Position numbers and translations under genes: made by a program. Source: an uncultured Lachnospiraceae bacterium (lineage in GTDB: Bacteria; Bacillota; Clostridia; Lachnospirales; Lachnospiraceae). Taken from it: a DNA stretch of 53,396 nt. A model generated the notes under the pieces. It did no database searches, had not been told where the DNA came from, and worked only from the letters and a program-made list of their open reading frames with translations. Shown here one piece after another: positions 2,694 to 53,330 of the stretch (the first letter of the stretch is position 1; each line of letters begins with the position of its first letter). The DNA lies in NCBI GenBank assembly GCA_946626215.1, contig CAMOUD010000002.1, forward strand, positions 1 through 53,396. The letters are read 5' to 3'.

Positions 2694-4172
2694 TCAGTCT
2701 CCGTCCTTCTGGGCGATCCCGTTCCTTTCAAAGTACTTGACCAGACGGGAAATGGCGCGGCTGGTCCGGAGGTAGTTGAAGGAATGGATGTTGGCGGTCA
2801 CATGGTCCGTGGTGACCACCTCCACCGTATCGCCCTCCTGGAGGCGGGTATAGGCCTGGAGATGGGTCTTGTTGAAGTTGATCATGGCGTAGTCGAAATG
2901 CAGGCCCACCTCGGAATGGATCATGAAGGCGAAGTCCAGGACCGTGGCTCCCTTGTCGATGAAGGTGCCGGACCCGTCCCGGCGGAAGACCTTGATCTTT
3001 TCATTGTAGGTATCGGTGGGGTTGACCTCGTTGACGTCCGTGTAGGGGGTCATCTCGGCCGAATCCGCGGCCCTGCCCAGGCGGAACTTGAGCTGGTCCT
3101 TCTGGGTCCTGAGGAAGAGCCGGTAGAGGTTGTCGAACCGGTCCGCCAGGAGGAGGTAGGTGGCGTCGTTGTGGGCCGTCCTGTTGATCCGAAGGACCGT
3201 GATCCCCTCTTTTTCCAGAGCCGTCTCATAGAAGAGGAAGAAGACGTCGTAGAGGGACTTGTCCGGCGTATAGACCAGGGCGTCATCCGAATAGATGAGG
3301 GTCAGGTCATAAAGGGGGACATTCTCCTTGTTGAAGAGCCGGCCGAATTCCTGGGACAGGTTGCCGGCCCGGCTGGTTATGTTCCGGAAGATCGAATAGG
3401 AGTAGCGGTGGGCCAGCTGGAAGTCCAGCACGTAGCGGCGGGCCCCCGTCAGGGAGTCTTCCACGCCCTCGTCGCCCAGGAAGACGTCCACCAGGGTCTG
3501 GATCGTCTTCTCGCTGGAGTTGTAGTTGCGCTCCAGCAGCTCCTCATAGAGCTGGCCGATCCTGGTATGGTGGGCCCTGTGCTCGATGGCAAAGCAGAGG
3601 TCCTCCAGGTCCTCCGCCAGCTCATAGGCCCCCTCCTCCACGATCATGGGGACCAGGATGTCCCGGGTATGGCGGGCCTTGGCCAGCTGCTTGGCCTCCG
3701 GCAGGGCAAAGATGGTATGGAGGTTGTCCAGCCTGTCCGCCGTCTTGATAAAGAGGGCGGAATCGGAGATATTGCGCTGGAGCTTGGCGTCCGTCAGGGC
3801 GTCCAGCTCCTCCTTGGACATCTTCTGCCGGCTCTGGAGCTCCCGCTTGACCTCCGAGACCGCGTCCACCAGATAGGCCGTATCATGGCCGAACTGGCTC
3901 CTGACCTCATCCACCGTCACCCCGCAGTCCTCCACCACGTCATGGAGCAGGGCCGCGATCACGACCTCGTCCCCCAGGCCCCACTGGGCCACGTAGCGGG
4001 CGACCCGCATGGGATGCTTGATATAGGCCTCGCCGCTCTTGCGGTACTGGCCTTCATGGCGGACAGAGGCGAACTGATAGGCCTTCTCCAGGGCCTTTCG
4101 GTTGTAGAGGCGGTGGTAGGACTCGATGGCGGCGATGATCTCCCGGAATTCACATTCCATTCTGTACATCAT
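2694..4172 (-). CDS. HD-domain + C-terminal TGS protein (RelA/SpoT-like without a recognisable synthetase motif)
   Basis: HD motifs YIKHPMRVA, ALLHDVVED, IKTADRLDNL; TGS-like VFRRDGSGTFIDKGATVLDFAFMIHSEVGLHFDYAMINF; canonical synthetase motifs not seen. Confidence 0.75.
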   Translation of the reverse strand: MMYRMECEFREIIAAIESYHRLYNRKALEKAYQFASVRHEGQYRKSGEAYIKHPMRVARYVAQWGLGDEVVIAALLHDVVEDCGVTVDEVRSQFGHDTAYLVDAVSEVKRELQSRQKMSKEELDALTDAKLQRNISDSALFIKTADRLDNLHTIFALPEAKQLAKARHTRDILVPMIVEEGAYELAEDLEDLCFAIEHRAHHTRIGQLYEELLERNYNSSEKTIQTLVDVFLGDEGVEDSLTGARRYVLDFQLAHRYSYSIFRNITSRAGNLSQEFGRLFNKENVPLYDLTLIYSDDALVYTPDKSLYDVFFLFYETALEKEGITVLRINRTAHNDATYLLLADRFDNLYRLFLRTQKDQLKFRLGRAADSAEMTPYTDVNEVNPTDTYNEKIKVFRRDGSGTFIDKGATVLDFAFMIHSEVGLHFDYAMINFNKTHLQAYTRLQEGDTVEVVTTDHVTANIHSFNYLRTSRAISRLVKYFERNGIAQKDGD

Positions 4173-5290
4173 TCACCTGCTTTCTCGGTATCGATCTCAT
4201 GGACGGCCGCGGTCTCGGCAGCCCCGCGGAGCAGGTCATCCGCCTCCGCGACGCTTTCCTCCTTTACGAAATGATACCAGCTGTCGTCGTCCCGGCCTGA
4301 GACCTTGGCGTAGCGGAAAAGGTTCCGTTCCATGTTGCGCCGGACGGCCCTTTCGATGTTGGCCCGGATGATGATGTTCTTCTGGGCGGCCGTCAGGTCT
4401 CCTGCCACAGGCTCTGTCATGTTCTCAAAGACCGCCAGGATCTCCTCGGTCTCCTCCTCCACATTGACAGGAGGGACGCTGAGCAGGAGGTGATAGTGGA
4501 TCTCCTCCTCGGAGACATCCAGGGGCATGCGGGAGATGCCCATGAACTGGACGGTGGGAGTGGACTCCCGTCCCCGGGAGACCGAATTGATGGTGCCGAT
4601 GCCGCCCTTGAAGTTGGTCTTGTTGGAATCCACCCGGTAAAAGATGGCCAGGGCCCTGTCCTTTTCCCCGTACTTCATGGTCAGGAACATATGGTGCTGG
4701 GTCAGGGTCACGTCCCCGATATAGAATTCCAGCTCCTCATGGCCGTTCATGTAGGCCATGACCTTGCGGGAATCCTTCTGGCTGCGGACCAGCCTGTGGA
4801 TGGCGGCGGCGTTCTCCCTGTCCGGAATGCCCATGACCGCGCAGCAGTTGAACCTGGCCTCTCTTCCGTCCTCGGAGTCCTCATAGATATGGAGAACGCC
4901 GAATTTCAGGGATCTGGCAGGTGAATTGTAGTCGGCCCCCATGTACTTGCCTGTATCCAGATAGTAGGCACAGTAGCTGCCGCAGTACTTCCGATAGCTG
5001 GCCCTTTCCTTTTCGCTGATGACCTCCGGGATCATCTGGGCCGTCTGCATGCGGGTGAAAAGAAGTTCATCGATGCTGATGCCGTAGATCCTGTGGAAGC
5101 GGATCAGGAACTCTGTGGAGGGCATGGTGTTGCCGTTGCAGTAGCCGGAGATGGTGGATTCCACCATGCCGGTATTCCTGGCAAGGTCCTTCTGGGTCAT
5201 CCGGTTGGCCTTGAGGAATTCCCGGAGATTGTCCGGGAAGTAAAGTCTGGCAGACTGCGGACTGTCTGCTGTCTTTTTTCCCTGTGTCAT
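4169..5290 (-). CDS. XRE-family transcriptional regulator with large C-terminal domain
   Basis: N-terminal HTH (LREFLKANRMTQKDLARNTGMVESTISGYCNGNTMPSTEFLIRFHRIYGISIDELLF) followed by about 290 aa without an obvious family; 4-nt overlap with the HD-TGS gene. Confidence 0.8.
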   Translation of the reverse strand: MTQGKKTADSPQSARLYFPDNLREFLKANRMTQKDLARNTGMVESTISGYCNGNTMPSTEFLIRFHRIYGISIDELLFTRMQTAQMIPEVISEKERASYRKYCGSYCAYYLDTGKYMGADYNSPARSLKFGVLHIYEDSEDGREARFNCCAVMGIPDRENAAAIHRLVRSQKDSRKVMAYMNGHEELEFYIGDVTLTQHHMFLTMKYGEKDRALAIFYRVDSNKTNFKGGIGTINSVSRGRESTPTVQFMGISRMPLDVSEEEIHYHLLLSVPPVNVEEETEEILAVFENMTEPVAGDLTAAQKNIIIRANIERAVRRNMERNLFRYAKVSGRDDDSWYHFVKEESVAEADDLLRGAAETAAVHEIDTEKAGE

Positions 5291-5515
5291 TGCTTTTCCT
5301 CCCCTTATACTGGTTTTTTGTCTGCACTGACATGCCTTTTTATGTATGCCATTATACGTCAGACGATAGAGGTTGGCAATGTGAAATCTTCAGAAAATTC
5401 ATCGTTTTCATTTCGCTCCATCGGTTTTTCCGAACACTCCGGCAGTATGCGCTTCCCTCCTTCAGATTTTTTATAAATTCTTTCGAAATAATTACAAAAT
5501 TCTTACATAAAAAGA

Positions 5516-5587: not shown

Positions 5588-5839
5588 TCAGGCCTGGGGG
5601 TCCTGGCCTCCGCCGAGGCTCTTCAGCTCCTCCAGAAGGGCCAGGTCTTCTTCGGTGATCCTGATATTGCAGGTCACGGGCGCCTGGCCGGGCTTGGTCA
5701 CGGAGACCTCAAAGACCGTATCGGCCGGGACTCCGCCCAGGATCTCGTTCCTGAAAAAGGCTACTGCCTTGGGATGGCGGGCCGTGAATTCACCGCGCAT
5801 CTTCATCAGCTTCATCAGTGCCATAGGATTGACTGCCAT
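5588..5839 (-). CDS. small conserved-looking protein, unknown function
   Basis: ORF from MAVNPMALMKLMKMRGEFTARHPKAVAFFRNEI; RBS aaggagcacc on minus strand; overlaps the trmD 3' end by 50 nt. Confidence 0.65.
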   Translation of the reverse strand: MAVNPMALMKLMKMRGEFTARHPKAVAFFRNEILGGVPADTVFEVSVTKPGQAPVTCNIRITEEDLALLEELKSLGGGQDPQA

Positions 5840-6578
5840 TGGTGCTCCTTTCTTCTTCCCGGATCTCTTCAAGTAGCCGGGCCTCCTCCCCTGTCAGGGT
5901 TTTCTTCTCCAGAAGGTCGGGCCTGAAGCGGAGGGTCTCCCGCAGGGACTCCTTCAGGCGCCAGATCCGGATCCTTTCGTGGTGGCCCGACAAAAGGACC
6001 TCCGGGACCTTCCTGCCCCGCCAGAGGGCGGGCTGGGTATACTGGGGATATTCCAGAAGACCGTTCTCAAAGGACTCCTCCTCCGCGCTCCCTTCCTTCA
6101 GGTTCCCCTCCAGAAGGCGCAGGACCGAGTCCGCCACGGCCATGGCGGGGATCTCTCCTCCGGTCAGGACATAGTCCCCCAGGGAGATCCGCATGTCGAC
6201 CCGGTCATAGAGCCTGGCGTCCATGCCCTCATAGCGGCCGCAGACCAGGATCAGGTGGCGGCAGCGGGACAGGTCCCTGGCCGTCCTCTGGTCATAGGGC
6301 AGGCCGGCCGGGACCAGGGCGGCCCGGACGACGCCCTCCGAGGGCCCCCGGCGGACTGCCTCCTCCATGGCCCTCATGACCGGCTCCGGCCTGAGGAGAA
6401 GCCCCCGGCCCCCGCCGAAGGGGGAATCATCGATATGCCGGAAGCTCCCTCCGGCAAAGGGCCTGATATCCAGGATCTCGACCTGGCCCAGGCCTCTTTC
6501 CCGGGCCCTTTCCACCACATGGGAGGTCAGAAAGCCCCGGAAAAGATCCGGACACATGGTCAGGATGGTGATCTTCAA
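5790..6578 (-). CDS. trmD: tRNA (guanine-N1-)-methyltransferase TrmD
   Basis: MKITILTMCPDLFRGF, DDSPFGGGRGLLLRPEP, LVCGRYEGMDARL, SLGDYVLTGGE. Confidence 0.95.
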   Translation of the reverse strand: MKITILTMCPDLFRGFLTSHVVERARERGLGQVEILDIRPFAGGSFRHIDDSPFGGGRGLLLRPEPVMRAMEEAVRRGPSEGVVRAALVPAGLPYDQRTARDLSRCRHLILVCGRYEGMDARLYDRVDMRISLGDYVLTGGEIPAMAVADSVLRLLEGNLKEGSAEEESFENGLLEYPQYTQPALWRGRKVPEVLLSGHHERIRIWRLKESLRETLRFRPDLLEKKTLTGEEARLLEEIREEERSTNGSQSYGTDEADEDAR

Positions 6579-10362: not shown

Positions 10363-12681
10363 TCAGTTGGCCTGCGGCCTCTCAAAGGAGAAAACAGCCG
10401 GCTCGTAGCCCCGGATCTCCAGGGCGTCCAGGACCTCCGAGACCTCCTCCACGGGGATGATCTCCAGGGCCTTCCTGGTCTCCTCGGGCACGTCCCGCAG
10501 GTCCTCCCGGTTCTCGGCCGGGATAAAGACCCTGGTGACGCCGGCCCGCTGGGCCGCCATCAGCTTCTCCGGCAGGCCTCCGATGGGGTTCACCCGTCCC
10601 TGGAGGGAGATCTCGCCGGTCATGGCCACGGCCGGGCTGACGGGGGTATCCGTCACCAGAGAGGCCAGGGCCGTTGTCAGGGTGATGCCCGCCGAAGGGC
10701 CGTCCTTGGGGGTGGCCCCGTCCGGCACATGGATATGAAGGTCGTTCTCCTTGAAGAGGTCCGCCTTTTCCGGATAGAGGGACCGGACCAGGCTCACCGC
10801 GATCTGGGCCGATTCCTTCATGACATCGCCCAGCTGGCCGGTCACGGCGACCCTGCCGGTGCCGGGGGTCAGGAGGGTCTCAATGTAGAGGATCTCTCCA
10901 CCCACCCTGGTCCAGGCCAGGCCTGTCACCACGCCGGGCCGGGCCGCTTCCCGGACCCTGCCGTGGGTCATGGGCCGCATGTCCATATAGTCGCGCAGGT
11001 TGTCGGGCCGGATCTCCACCCGGCTGCCTCCGCCCCGGACCAGGTCTACGGCCGTGGTCCTGCAGAGGACGTCCATGCACTTTTTCAGACCGCGGACGCC
11101 GCTCTCCCTGGTATAGTCGGAAATGATCAGGTCCAGGACCTCATCGGAGATGGACAGGTCCTCCTCCCGGATGCCGGCGGCCCGCATGGCCCTGGGCAGG
11201 AGGTGGCGCCTGGCGATCTGCTTCTTTTCCAGAGGGGTATAGCCCTGGAACTGGATGACCTCCATCCGGTTCAGCAGGGGAGCCGGGATGGTATCGATGG
11301 AGTTGGCCGTGCAGATGAAGAGGACATTGGACAGGTCGTAGGGCACGTTCATGTAGTGGTCGGTAAAGGTGGAATTCTGCTCGGGATCCAGGACCTCCAG
11401 AAGGGCGCTGGCAGGGTCTCCCTGATAGGAAACGCCCAGCTTGTCCACCTCGTCCAGGACCATGACCGGGTTGGAGACGCCGCTCTTGGAGATGCCGTCC
11501 ATGATCCGGCCGGGCATGGCTCCGATGTAGGTCCGTCTGTGGCCCCGGATGTCCGCCTCGTCCCTGACGCCGCCCAGGCTGACCCGGACATACCTGCGGC
11601 CCAGGGCCCTGGCGATGGACTGGCCGATGCTGGTCTTGCCGGTACCGGGCGCGCCCACAAAGAGGAGGATGGAGCCGGACTGCATGCGCCTGAGGCTCAT
11701 GACGGCGATCTGCTGGAGGATCCTCTTCTTGACCTTGTGAAGGCCGTAATGGTCCTCCTCCAGGATCTCCTCAGCCGCGGCCAGATCGATGTCCGCCGCC
11801 TTTTCCTTCTTCCAGGACAGGCCGGTCAGGAATTCCAGATAGTCCTGGAGCATGCCGGTCTCGGCGGTGGGCTGACCGTCCATCTTCAGGCGCCGCAGGA
11901 CCTTGTCCGCTTCCTTCCGGGCTTCCTCGTTCATGCCCGATTCCTGGACCCGGATCTCCAGGCGCCGCAGGTCTGAAACGGTCTCGGGATGCATATCATC
12001 CAGCTTCTTCTGGAGATATTCGATCTGCCGCCGGATGGCAGACTCCTGGTACATCCTTTCATGCTCGTTTTCCTGGACCGCCTGGGCCTCGCCCCGGATC
12101 TTCGTCATCTCCAGGTTCTCATAGATCATCTGCTCCAGCATCTTAAGCCGGCGGACATGGGAGTCCTCGGCCAGGACGGCGTAGCGCTCCTCATTGGAAT
12201 TCATGAGCCAGGGGGACATGGAGGCCGCGATCTCCTCCAGAGTGGACCACTGGGACACATAGCCCCGGATGGCCTGGCCCCACTGATACTTCTCGGAGAA
12301 CCGGACCACCGCCTTCTTGGCCTCCCGGACCATGGCCGCTTCCGTATCGGGATCGGTCTCGTCCGTATCGGGCCGCCTGGAGATGGACAGGTCGATGGAA
12401 TGGTCGTGGTAGACCACCACCTCGTCGATGTTGACCCGGTTCCGGGTCCGGATCACGATATAGCCCTCGTTGTTGATCTCATTGATGATGCCGGAGACTC
12501 CGATGGGATAGAAGGACTCCGCCGTGATCTCATCAGGCTCCAGGTTGTCCCGGAGGATCAGGAGAAAGACCCTCTCTCCCTCTCCGGGAATGGCCCCGGT
12601 CATCTTTTTGAAATAGTCGGTCTTGATCACAATGCCGGCGTTCGGCACTGCCAGTGTATTGTAAACGGGTAATGCTGCCAA
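10363..12681 (-). CDS. lon: ATP-dependent protease Lon
   Basis: N-terminal LON domain; Walker A GAPGTGKTS; AAA GGVRDEADIRGHRRTYIGAMPG; Ser/Lys dyad region DGPSAGIT and NPIGGLPEKLMAA. Confidence 0.97.
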   Translation of the reverse strand: MAALPVYNTLAVPNAGIVIKTDYFKKMTGAIPGEGERVFLLILRDNLEPDEITAESFYPIGVSGIINEINNEGYIVIRTRNRVNIDEVVVYHDHSIDLSISRRPDTDETDPDTEAAMVREAKKAVVRFSEKYQWGQAIRGYVSQWSTLEEIAASMSPWLMNSNEERYAVLAEDSHVRRLKMLEQMIYENLEMTKIRGEAQAVQENEHERMYQESAIRRQIEYLQKKLDDMHPETVSDLRRLEIRVQESGMNEEARKEADKVLRRLKMDGQPTAETGMLQDYLEFLTGLSWKKEKAADIDLAAAEEILEEDHYGLHKVKKRILQQIAVMSLRRMQSGSILLFVGAPGTGKTSIGQSIARALGRRYVRVSLGGVRDEADIRGHRRTYIGAMPGRIMDGISKSGVSNPVMVLDEVDKLGVSYQGDPASALLEVLDPEQNSTFTDHYMNVPYDLSNVLFICTANSIDTIPAPLLNRMEVIQFQGYTPLEKKQIARRHLLPRAMRAAGIREEDLSISDEVLDLIISDYTRESGVRGLKKCMDVLCRTTAVDLVRGGGSRVEIRPDNLRDYMDMRPMTHGRVREAARPGVVTGLAWTRVGGEILYIETLLTPGTGRVAVTGQLGDVMKESAQIAVSLVRSLYPEKADLFKENDLHIHVPDGATPKDGPSAGITLTTALASLVTDTPVSPAVAMTGEISLQGRVNPIGGLPEKLMAAQRAGVTRVFIPAENREDLRDVPEETRKALEIIPVEEVSEVLDALEIRGYEPAVFSFERPQAN

Positions 12682-51116: not shown

Positions 51117-52097
51117 TCAGCCCTTTTTAAATTCTATCAGTTTCTGGGCGCATTCGGAATCCGTAATTAAAATATTGACAAAACCTCCCTGGATGGCGCC
51201 CAGAAGAGCCTCCGCCTTCCGGCTGCCGGTCCCGATGCAGATCCGGTTCTCCACTGTCTTCATCTCCTCCAGGGAAAGGCCCGCGACCCGGTCGTTGAAG
51301 GACCGGAAGGCCTCTGTCCTGCCCTCTCTGTCGAAATACTGGAGGGAAATATCTCCCACCATGCCCGCTTCCACCATCCGTTCGATCTCATTCTGGCGGA
51401 TATAGCCGCCCCTGATCATGGTGGACATGGCGTGGTTGGGCGTCCCTATGCCCATGATCACGGTCCGCATCCTCCGGTAGTATTCCTGGATCCTGCGGGC
51501 CATTTTTTCCTTCATGAAGCCCTGAAGGATGGTCTTGTCGGAGAACATGGCGGGGGCGAAGAATTCAATGTATTCGCTCCCGAAGAGCTCCGCGAAGCCC
51601 CGGGCGATCTGGTTGGAATGGACGGCGTTGACCGAACTGCCGGAAACGCTGATGCCGCCCACCACAGGGACGAAGGTGCAGTCGAACTGGCCGACGGCCC
51701 CGGTATTCTCTCCGCAGATGTTGTAGAGGGTCCTGCCCATGGAAACGCCCACCACGTCCCCGTTCTCCAGGCAGGTCTCCAGCAGGCTGATGGCCGCCTT
51801 CCGGATCTCAGCCTGTTCGTCAAAGCTGGTGGCCAGAGGATCGTGCTCGATCACCACCGCTTCCTTGAGATGGAAAAGGTTCTCCAGATCATTCTCCAGC
51901 TCGCTGTAGCCCAGCTGGTTGGGAGAGATGACCCGGATCTGGACGATTCCCTCATCCCGGCCCGCCTTCAGCAGGCGGGAAACAGAGACCCTCGAAATCC
52001 CTATTATATCCGCTATCTCGTTCTGTGAACAGTTTTTTTCATAATACAATTTGCAGCATTTGTATATAAGCCTGGGATTATCCACGACCTTCTTCAC
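51117..52097 (-). CDS. SorC-type sugar-binding transcriptional regulator
   Basis: HTH YYEKNCSQNEIADIIGISRVSVSRLLKAGRDEGIVQIRV; VGVSMGRTLYNI; VPVVGGISVSGSSVNAVHSNQIA. Confidence 0.92.
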   Translation of the reverse strand: MKKVVDNPRLIYKCCKLYYEKNCSQNEIADIIGISRVSVSRLLKAGRDEGIVQIRVISPNQLGYSELENDLENLFHLKEAVVIEHDPLATSFDEQAEIRKAAISLLETCLENGDVVGVSMGRTLYNICGENTGAVGQFDCTFVPVVGGISVSGSSVNAVHSNQIARGFAELFGSEYIEFFAPAMFSDKTILQGFMKEKMARRIQEYYRRMRTVIMGIGTPNHAMSTMIRGGYIRQNEIERMVEAGMVGDISLQYFDREGRTEAFRSFNDRVAGLSLEEMKTVENRICIGTGSRKAEALLGAIQGGFVNILITDSECAQKLIEFKKG

Positions 52098-52343
52098 TTG
52101 TGTATCCCCCCGCCTGCGTCCGGTCCTGTTGCGCTTGTTTCCGGTTTCCCGTTTTCATTCTAAAACAGGGAATTTATATTTACAATATTTCCAATCCGGA
52201 ACATCAGTAAATATTCATTATAGAGCCTATTTTCACTTTATCATTTGTAAATGTATCGATTTAGAAGTACAATAAAACCACCTGAAGACCTGTTCCGTAC
52301 CGCCGCACTCCGTGAACAACTGCAAACAAGTAAAGGAACTGCC

Positions 52344-53330
52344 TTGAAGAAAGTCATTGACAACCCCCGCCTGATCTATAAGTGCTGCAAGCTCTACTAT
52401 GAGAACGAAATGTCCCAGGCGGACATCGCCGAAAGCCTGGGCGTCTCCCGCGTTTCCGTCTCCCGGATGATCCGGGCCGGGCAGGAAAGGGGCTATGTGC
52501 AGATCCGGGTGATCTCTCCCGGGCAGTTGGGCAGCAGCCGCCTGGAAGAATCCCTGATCCGGCTCTGCGGCCTCGCGGAAGCCGTCGTCATCGACGGGGA
52601 AGCTTCTCTGGGCGGAGCCGACCAGGTCTCTGTCCTCAGGACCTCCCTGATCAGCCTTCTGGAGGCCGAGCTCAGGGAAACGGACTATGTAGGCGTCTCC
52701 ATGGGCCACACCCTCATGAGCATCTACGCGGGCTCCCACCAGAACGCCGGCAGGATCGGCTGCACCTTCATCCCCATGGTCGGAGGCGTCAGCCTGACAG
52801 GCCAGAGCACGGAAGCCATCCATTCCAACCAGATCGCGAGGGGCTTTGCCGATATGTTCGGGGGCCGGTACATGGAATTCTTCTCCCCCGCCGTCTTCTC
52901 CGATGCCGCCCTGATGCAGAGCTTCATGCAGGAGCAGGCCAACCGGGAGATCCTGGCCTCCTATGACCGCCTGGACGCCGCCATCATGGGAATCGGAACG
53001 CCCGATTCCACCTCCCTCTCCACCATGGAAAAGGCGGGCTATACCACCCGGGATGAGATCCGGGCCATGACAGAACGGGGCATGGTAGGCGATATCTCTC
53101 TTCAATACTTCAATGCCGAGGGAGACGGCAGCCCTTTCCGGGACTTCAACAGCCGGGTCGCCGGCCTCCCTCTGGAAAAGCTCCGCCTTGTCCCCAAAAA
53201 GATCTGCATCGCCGCCGGCAGGGAAAAGGCCGCTGCCATCCGGGCCGCCATCCGGGGCGGCTATGTCAATATCCTGGTCACGGACACGGAATGCGCCAGG
53301 GCCCTGATCGAGGCGGAATCCGAAATCTGA
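52344..53330 (+). CDS. SorC-type sugar-binding transcriptional regulator, paralogue of the divergent 51117-52097 gene
   Basis: TTG start preferred by homology (LKKVIDNPRLIYKCCKLYYE aligns to MKKVVDNPRLIYKCCKLYYE); VGVSMGHTLMSIY; FIPMVGGVSLTGQSTEAIHSNQIARGFADMFG. Confidence 0.9.
   Translation: MKKVIDNPRLIYKCCKLYYENEMSQADIAESLGVSRVSVSRMIRAGQERGYVQIRVISPGQLGSSRLEESLIRLCGLAEAVVIDGEASLGGADQVSVLRTSLISLLEAELRETDYVGVSMGHTLMSIYAGSHQNAGRIGCTFIPMVGGVSLTGQSTEAIHSNQIARGFADMFGGRYMEFFSPAVFSDAALMQSFMQEQANREILASYDRLDAAIMGIGTPDSTSLSTMEKAGYTTRDEIRAMTERGMVGDISLQYFNAEGDGSPFRDFNSRVAGLPLEKLRLVPKKICIAAGREKAAAIRAAIRGGYVNILVTDTECARALIEAESEI

Follow-up and report, generated by a model that had tools for sequence, protein, structure and literature searches.

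The 53,396-nucleotide window analysed here, the whole stretch taken from an uncultured Lachnospiraceae bacterium of gut or rumen, carries two minus-strand genes in which an XRE-family regulator of 373 aa (4169-5290; open reading frame and HTH_3 match) comes first and is followed by an RSH-derived HD/TGS partner of 492 aa (2694-4172; open reading frame, Pfam and predicted fold). The two genes are joined by a 4-nt ATGA stop/start overlap that is directly visible at 4169-4172, as an earlier note on this DNA had claimed, and its proposal that they are translationally coupled is supported; module comparison finds the same 4-nt overlap at loci L107, L109, L110, L112, L121 and L005. About 60 nt ahead of the XRE start lies a sigma-70-type promoter-like site on the same strand (TTGCCA-17-TATAAT, 5351-5379), recognised by consensus match with 11 of 12 consensus bases, and five such sites occur in the region against 0.7 expected from shuffles. 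Just 3' of the partner gene, also on the minus strand, is a strong hairpin (2597-2640; -36.1 kcal/mol, z = -4.45) that none of 200 shuffles equalled in stability. The terminator scan found no T run or T-rich tail at this hairpin, which is absent from the list of terminator-like structures, and the operon may end near it. Because a promoter-like site precedes the XRE gene and a stable hairpin follows the partner gene, the pair looks like a complete bicistronic operon. The upstream neighbour (5790-6578) resembles trmD by eye, and the downstream neighbour of the partner gene is a convergent WYL regulator by Pfam. A 496-aa open frame on the plus strand (2784-4274) runs antisense across nearly the whole RSH-derived gene and probably arises from high G+C codon usage. 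Elsewhere in the window, two divergent regulators at 51117-52097 (minus) and 52251-53330 (plus), about 150 bp apart, are evidently paralogous, with very similar N-termini (DNPRLIYKCCKLYYE...).

RSH enzymes make and destroy alarmones, and the partner protein retains much of their architecture: an HD domain (residues ~25-180), a helical linker, a pseudo-synthetase domain (~246-366) and a TGS domain (393-454). Pfam places HD_4 at 31-175 (E 7e-25) and TGS at 393-454 (E 1e-9), both above cut-off, which bears out the Rel-type TGS previously proposed, and the HD core motifs that had been read from the sequence lie at 52-54 (KHP), 77-82 (HDVVED) and 145-150 (ADRLDN). Membership of the RSH superfamily is indicated by a match to TIGR00691 (spoT_relA, E 1e-58), yet one below the full-length cut-off of that model, and by a profile match to Rel (E 1e-74). 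The full domain set of a long RSH of the Rel/SpoT type is lacking, as the chain ends about 40 residues past the TGS without the helical, zinc-finger and ACT/RRM domains, and so are the catalytic glutamate of the EXQIRT motif and the G-loop of an active long-RSH synthetase.

The earlier note had described the middle of the protein as free of any synthetase signature, and this stands at the level of Pfam, where RelA_SpoT (PF04607) is absent from the partner; the predicted structure nevertheless gives this region a synthetase fold. In the AlphaFold model (pLDDT 82.7, from an 18-sequence alignment) that fold is without the catalytic motif, and the full catalytic synthetase domain that would have contradicted the note was not found. 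Foldseek matched the whole chain to SpoT (7qpr, the best match, E 5e-21) and to Rel (6yxa), and matched the HD plus middle domains to the Rel catalytic fragment 7oiw (TMt 0.80). Because the 7oiw match covers both HD and middle domains, and would hardly be attainable by HD alone, we read the middle as a degenerate RelA/SpoT synthetase on the strength of predicted fold and domain order; when the middle domain was taken by itself, its profile match to the Rel synthetase domain was not significant (E ~0.1). The strand that would correspond to EXQIRT reads YRLFLRT, placing R351 where Rel has its catalytic glutamate, a mapping made by motif and domain order without a significant profile alignment. 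R351 is invariant in 30/30 modules, together with D289, D344 and the TGS residues L412, D413, F416 and D448, and the pseudo-synthetase and TGS portion of the gene (2694-3467, minus strand) has a counterpart in every module compared. A second TGS-like domain was observed at the partner C-terminus of nine or ten loci (L109, L110, L111, L112, L115, L120, L007, L009, L013 and perhaps L040), most of which also carry an insert in the pseudo-synthetase.

The XRE protein begins with an ordinary Cro/C1-type helix-turn-helix of the kind that defines XRE regulators (HTH_3 at residues 22-76, E 4e-11 by Pfam). The remaining ~290 aa have no family match, just as had been noted, and contain a C-terminal domain (residues ~98-350) of mixed beta and helical structure in a model with pLDDT 76. 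No Pfam or PDB family was found for this domain by sequence, 25 homologous C-domains are likewise without a Pfam family, and Foldseek and profile searches returned no convincing fold. Candidate beta-barrel matches (MPnS/HppE proteins, nitrophorin and retinol-binding protein) were weak and mutually inconsistent (TMq ~0.2) and were rejected; viral matches to the XRE protein were mainly driven by the HTH, so no fold was assigned from them. The domain may possibly be a sensor. Upstream of the XRE gene, a dyad search performed no better than shuffles. The words AATTCAG and ATTGTCAG are weakly enriched upstream of XRE genes, but they were chosen after the fact with near-identical loci included, and neither is present upstream of XRE in the window, leaving the enrichment as a lead only. 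Just upstream of XRE at locus L104 (~10690-10900) there are several head-to-tail copies of a ~14-bp repeat (TTTCCCTGAGGCTG); these repeats, and the AATTCAG/ATTGTCAG words elsewhere, are possibly operators or possibly chance.

The search for the pair covered 61 relatives, seven named records, 62 genus genomes and 397 family genomes, many of the genomes being metagenome assemblies, and thirty modules were read. In all 30 the partner gene directly follows the XRE gene in the same order and on the same strand, and wherever the contig extends far enough, a gene for the XRE C-domain is directly followed by an RSH-derived gene on the same strand; in one genome (G920) the two halves of the module lie at the ends of two contigs. 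The XRE C-domain occurs in 18 of the 62 genus genomes and 10 of the 397 sampled Lachnospiraceae genomes, and a reverse search with the pseudo-synthetase-TGS profile gave full matches in exactly those ten, while its other matches among the 397 all fell on the TGS domain of ordinary long Rels. The genome-wide search thus found the pairing conserved in other genomes, and the lack of pairing that would have told against the earlier note did not appear. Pairing is kept over ten genera at 25-45% identity, presence in two other genera is sporadic (1/17 and 1/5 genomes), and the flanking genes vary between loci, close relatives excepted. No module was found outside Lachnospiraceae among 388 class and 259 phylum genomes, none was found in viral contigs, and plasmids yielded no XRE C-domain. 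Matches to the partner in phage records were rejected as modules, as they align no more closely than ordinary RSH proteins do and come mostly from unannotated records. The strict pairing, varying flanks and sporadic presence argue that the module is accessory and self-contained, a mobile-looking two-gene unit. One locus (L119:8246-8902, G008:C46) holds the C-terminal half of a partner without HD or XRE beside unrelated sequence and is a decayed copy of the module. Another (L124, G981:C154), at the end of a contig, is an additional but truncated XRE C-domain in a genome that also has a full module.

The HD domain of the window copy is intact. Residues R44, H53, H77, D78, E81, D82, D146 and N150 are all present, among them the metal ligands and ED motif of alarmone hydrolases (H53, H77, D78, E81, D82 and D146), and R44 to N150 fall at nearly the same positions as in Rel of S. 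equisimilis. All HD catalytic residues are kept in 24 of the 30 modules, and the HD is dead in five or six, one of which is without it altogether; XRE, pseudo-synthetase and TGS are retained throughout. In L116 and L040 the HD pair reads HE and the ED motif is missing, in L118 D146 is lost, and L121 has KN in place of ED and E in place of D146. L013, with DM replacing ED, is borderline and its HD probably dead, whereas in L117 the HD domain is wholly missing and the partner starts next to the XRE stop. The linker of the L040 module is also frameshifted, perhaps through a sequencing error. Pfam agrees in part: HD_4 falls short of the cut-off in L116 and L040 and has no match in L117, and TGS passes in every case in which that region was scanned. 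With the tree restricted to XRE and pseudo-synthetase-TGS columns and HD columns excluded, HD loss requires four changes, all forced by well-supported branches, or three without the borderline L013; the HD-dead members sit on long branches and their placement is unsure, but the loss count is stable in bootstraps. Mean HD identity is 40% between the two intact groups and 27% between dead and intact lineages; the corresponding values for TGS are 43% and 41%. Among close pairs dN is well below dS in all domains, indicating purifying selection, and among intact members only TGS is more constrained than HD. The conserved core of the module is therefore the regulator together with the pseudo-synthetase/TGS, and hydrolysis is optional.

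The best explanation of these observations, which we hold tentatively and a little short of an even chance, is a self-contained regulatory module in which the XRE protein and its RSH-derived partner act as a signal-responsive pair. The partner would derive from a long RSH enzyme of the Rel/SpoT type that lost synthesis and everything after the TGS, and it would be made together with the XRE protein, the putative DNA-binding component with its private C-terminal domain. The pseudo-synthetase/TGS part would most likely form a complex with that C-terminal domain, and the complex could couple DNA binding by XRE to a signal of the kind read by RSH proteins, such as alarmone, starved tRNA or ribosome state; the DNA target and target genes of XRE are likewise inferred. 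Where the HD is intact, as in the window copy, its probable activity is hydrolysis of (p)ppGpp or a related nucleotide, by which it may add a reset or ligand-binding function, and where it is dead or missing the partner would be a pure pseudo-enzyme regulator. We favour this signal-responsive pairing because hydrolysis is optional in the module and the regulator and pseudo-synthetase/TGS are not. The host also encodes a long Rel of 779 aa with HD and synthetase domains plus two small synthetases, and alarmone turnover should therefore not depend on the partner gene. That the module represents a class of regulators using a Rel-derived pseudo-enzyme as a dedicated signal receptor or co-regulator subunit of XRE, with hydrolysis optional, is a real possibility toward which we do not quite lean. 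If true, an RSH scaffold can act as a receptor that links a signal directly to a promoter.

Several observations pull the other way. Co-occurrence of the two genes could reflect simple autoregulation, the complex being a proposed one, and the HD-dead members are distant (~25-30% identity), so that their function may have drifted while the window copy may be a real hydrolase. The strong constraint on HD among intact members implies that catalysis matters where it is kept. A serious rival for the window copy, though one we think less likely than not, is a hydrolase dedicated to an alarmone or other nucleotide and equipped with its own autoregulator. On this view HD would bring down the level of (p)ppGpp or a relative, and XRE would repress the operon and respond to a ligand by way of its C-terminal domain. 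This was the earlier note's proposal, and much of what it rested on held: the intact HD, coupling, pairing and lack of a catalytic synthetase. HD residues are conserved in this copy and in most modules, SpoT/Rel and MESH1/SAH hydrolases are the nearest relatives of solved structure, the bifunctional long RSH and two small synthetases of the host could supply substrate, and the weak AATTCAG/ATTGTCAG enrichment would fit autoregulation. What did not hold is hydrolysis as the general explanation, since L116, L118, L121, L040 and probably L013 have lost HD residues and L117 the whole domain, with all else retained. A plain hydrolase, moreover, would need neither a strictly retained pseudo-synthetase with invariant residues nor a private regulator domain.

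The overlapping genes, patchy presence (18/62 in the genus, 1/17 and 1/5 in two others), varying flanks and single decayed copy would also suit a toxin-antitoxin or phage-defence module in which the XRE protein acts as neutraliser or switch. We consider this improbable, as the synthetase catalytic motif that is the source of toxSAS toxicity is gone, viral contigs lack the module and plasmids the XRE protein, and the pair has no match to known toxin-antitoxin or defence families beyond the HTH, PADLOC matches being HTH only for XRE and marginal for the partner. A functionless, decaying RSH duplicate merely sitting beside a regulator could be read from the degenerate synthetase, the dead HD of some members and the remnant L119, but pairing over ten genera at 25-45% identity, the reverse search, and the dN/dS of close pairs, far below 1 in every domain, make that reading unlikely, and we give it scarcely any weight.

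The interest of the module as a signal-responsive pair lies in an RSH relative that is strictly paired, no longer capable of synthesis and repeatedly deprived of hydrolysis as well, yet still tied to a DNA-binding protein; its small size and the natural HD-less member L117 make the importance of hydrolysis directly testable. No description of an XRE and degenerate-RSH pair was found in open-access papers, and we judge the module to be an RSH-family variant with an uncharacterised obligate XRE partner. Small alarmone hydrolases such as MESH1 share the HD fold and catalytic residues, but are single-domain proteins without pseudo-synthetase or TGS. The toxSAS toxin-antitoxin systems and CapRel (PMC11782079, PMC9712102) are likewise RSH-derived proteins in small accessory modules, yet they depend on an active synthetase, whereas the synthetase here is degenerate and no toxin is evident. 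RshC of Bacillus (PMC3153485), a second-copy long RSH truncated after the TGS and a candidate for horizontal origin, is set apart by its description, which classes it as HD plus SYNTH, restricts it to six Bacillus strains and mentions no XRE partner. The nearest parallel is the hydrolase-only SpoT of Moraxellaceae (A. baumannii, PDB 7qpr; PMC9974481), which also combines an intact HD, a pseudo-synthetase without catalytic residues and a TGS, and whose structure indicates that pseudo-SYNTH and TGS can act as regulatory domains (PMC9974481). That SpoT is a full-length long RSH with HEL, ZFD and RRM and the main hydrolase of its host, whereas the window protein stops after the TGS, is additional to a true Rel in its host, and is always accompanied by its XRE partner.
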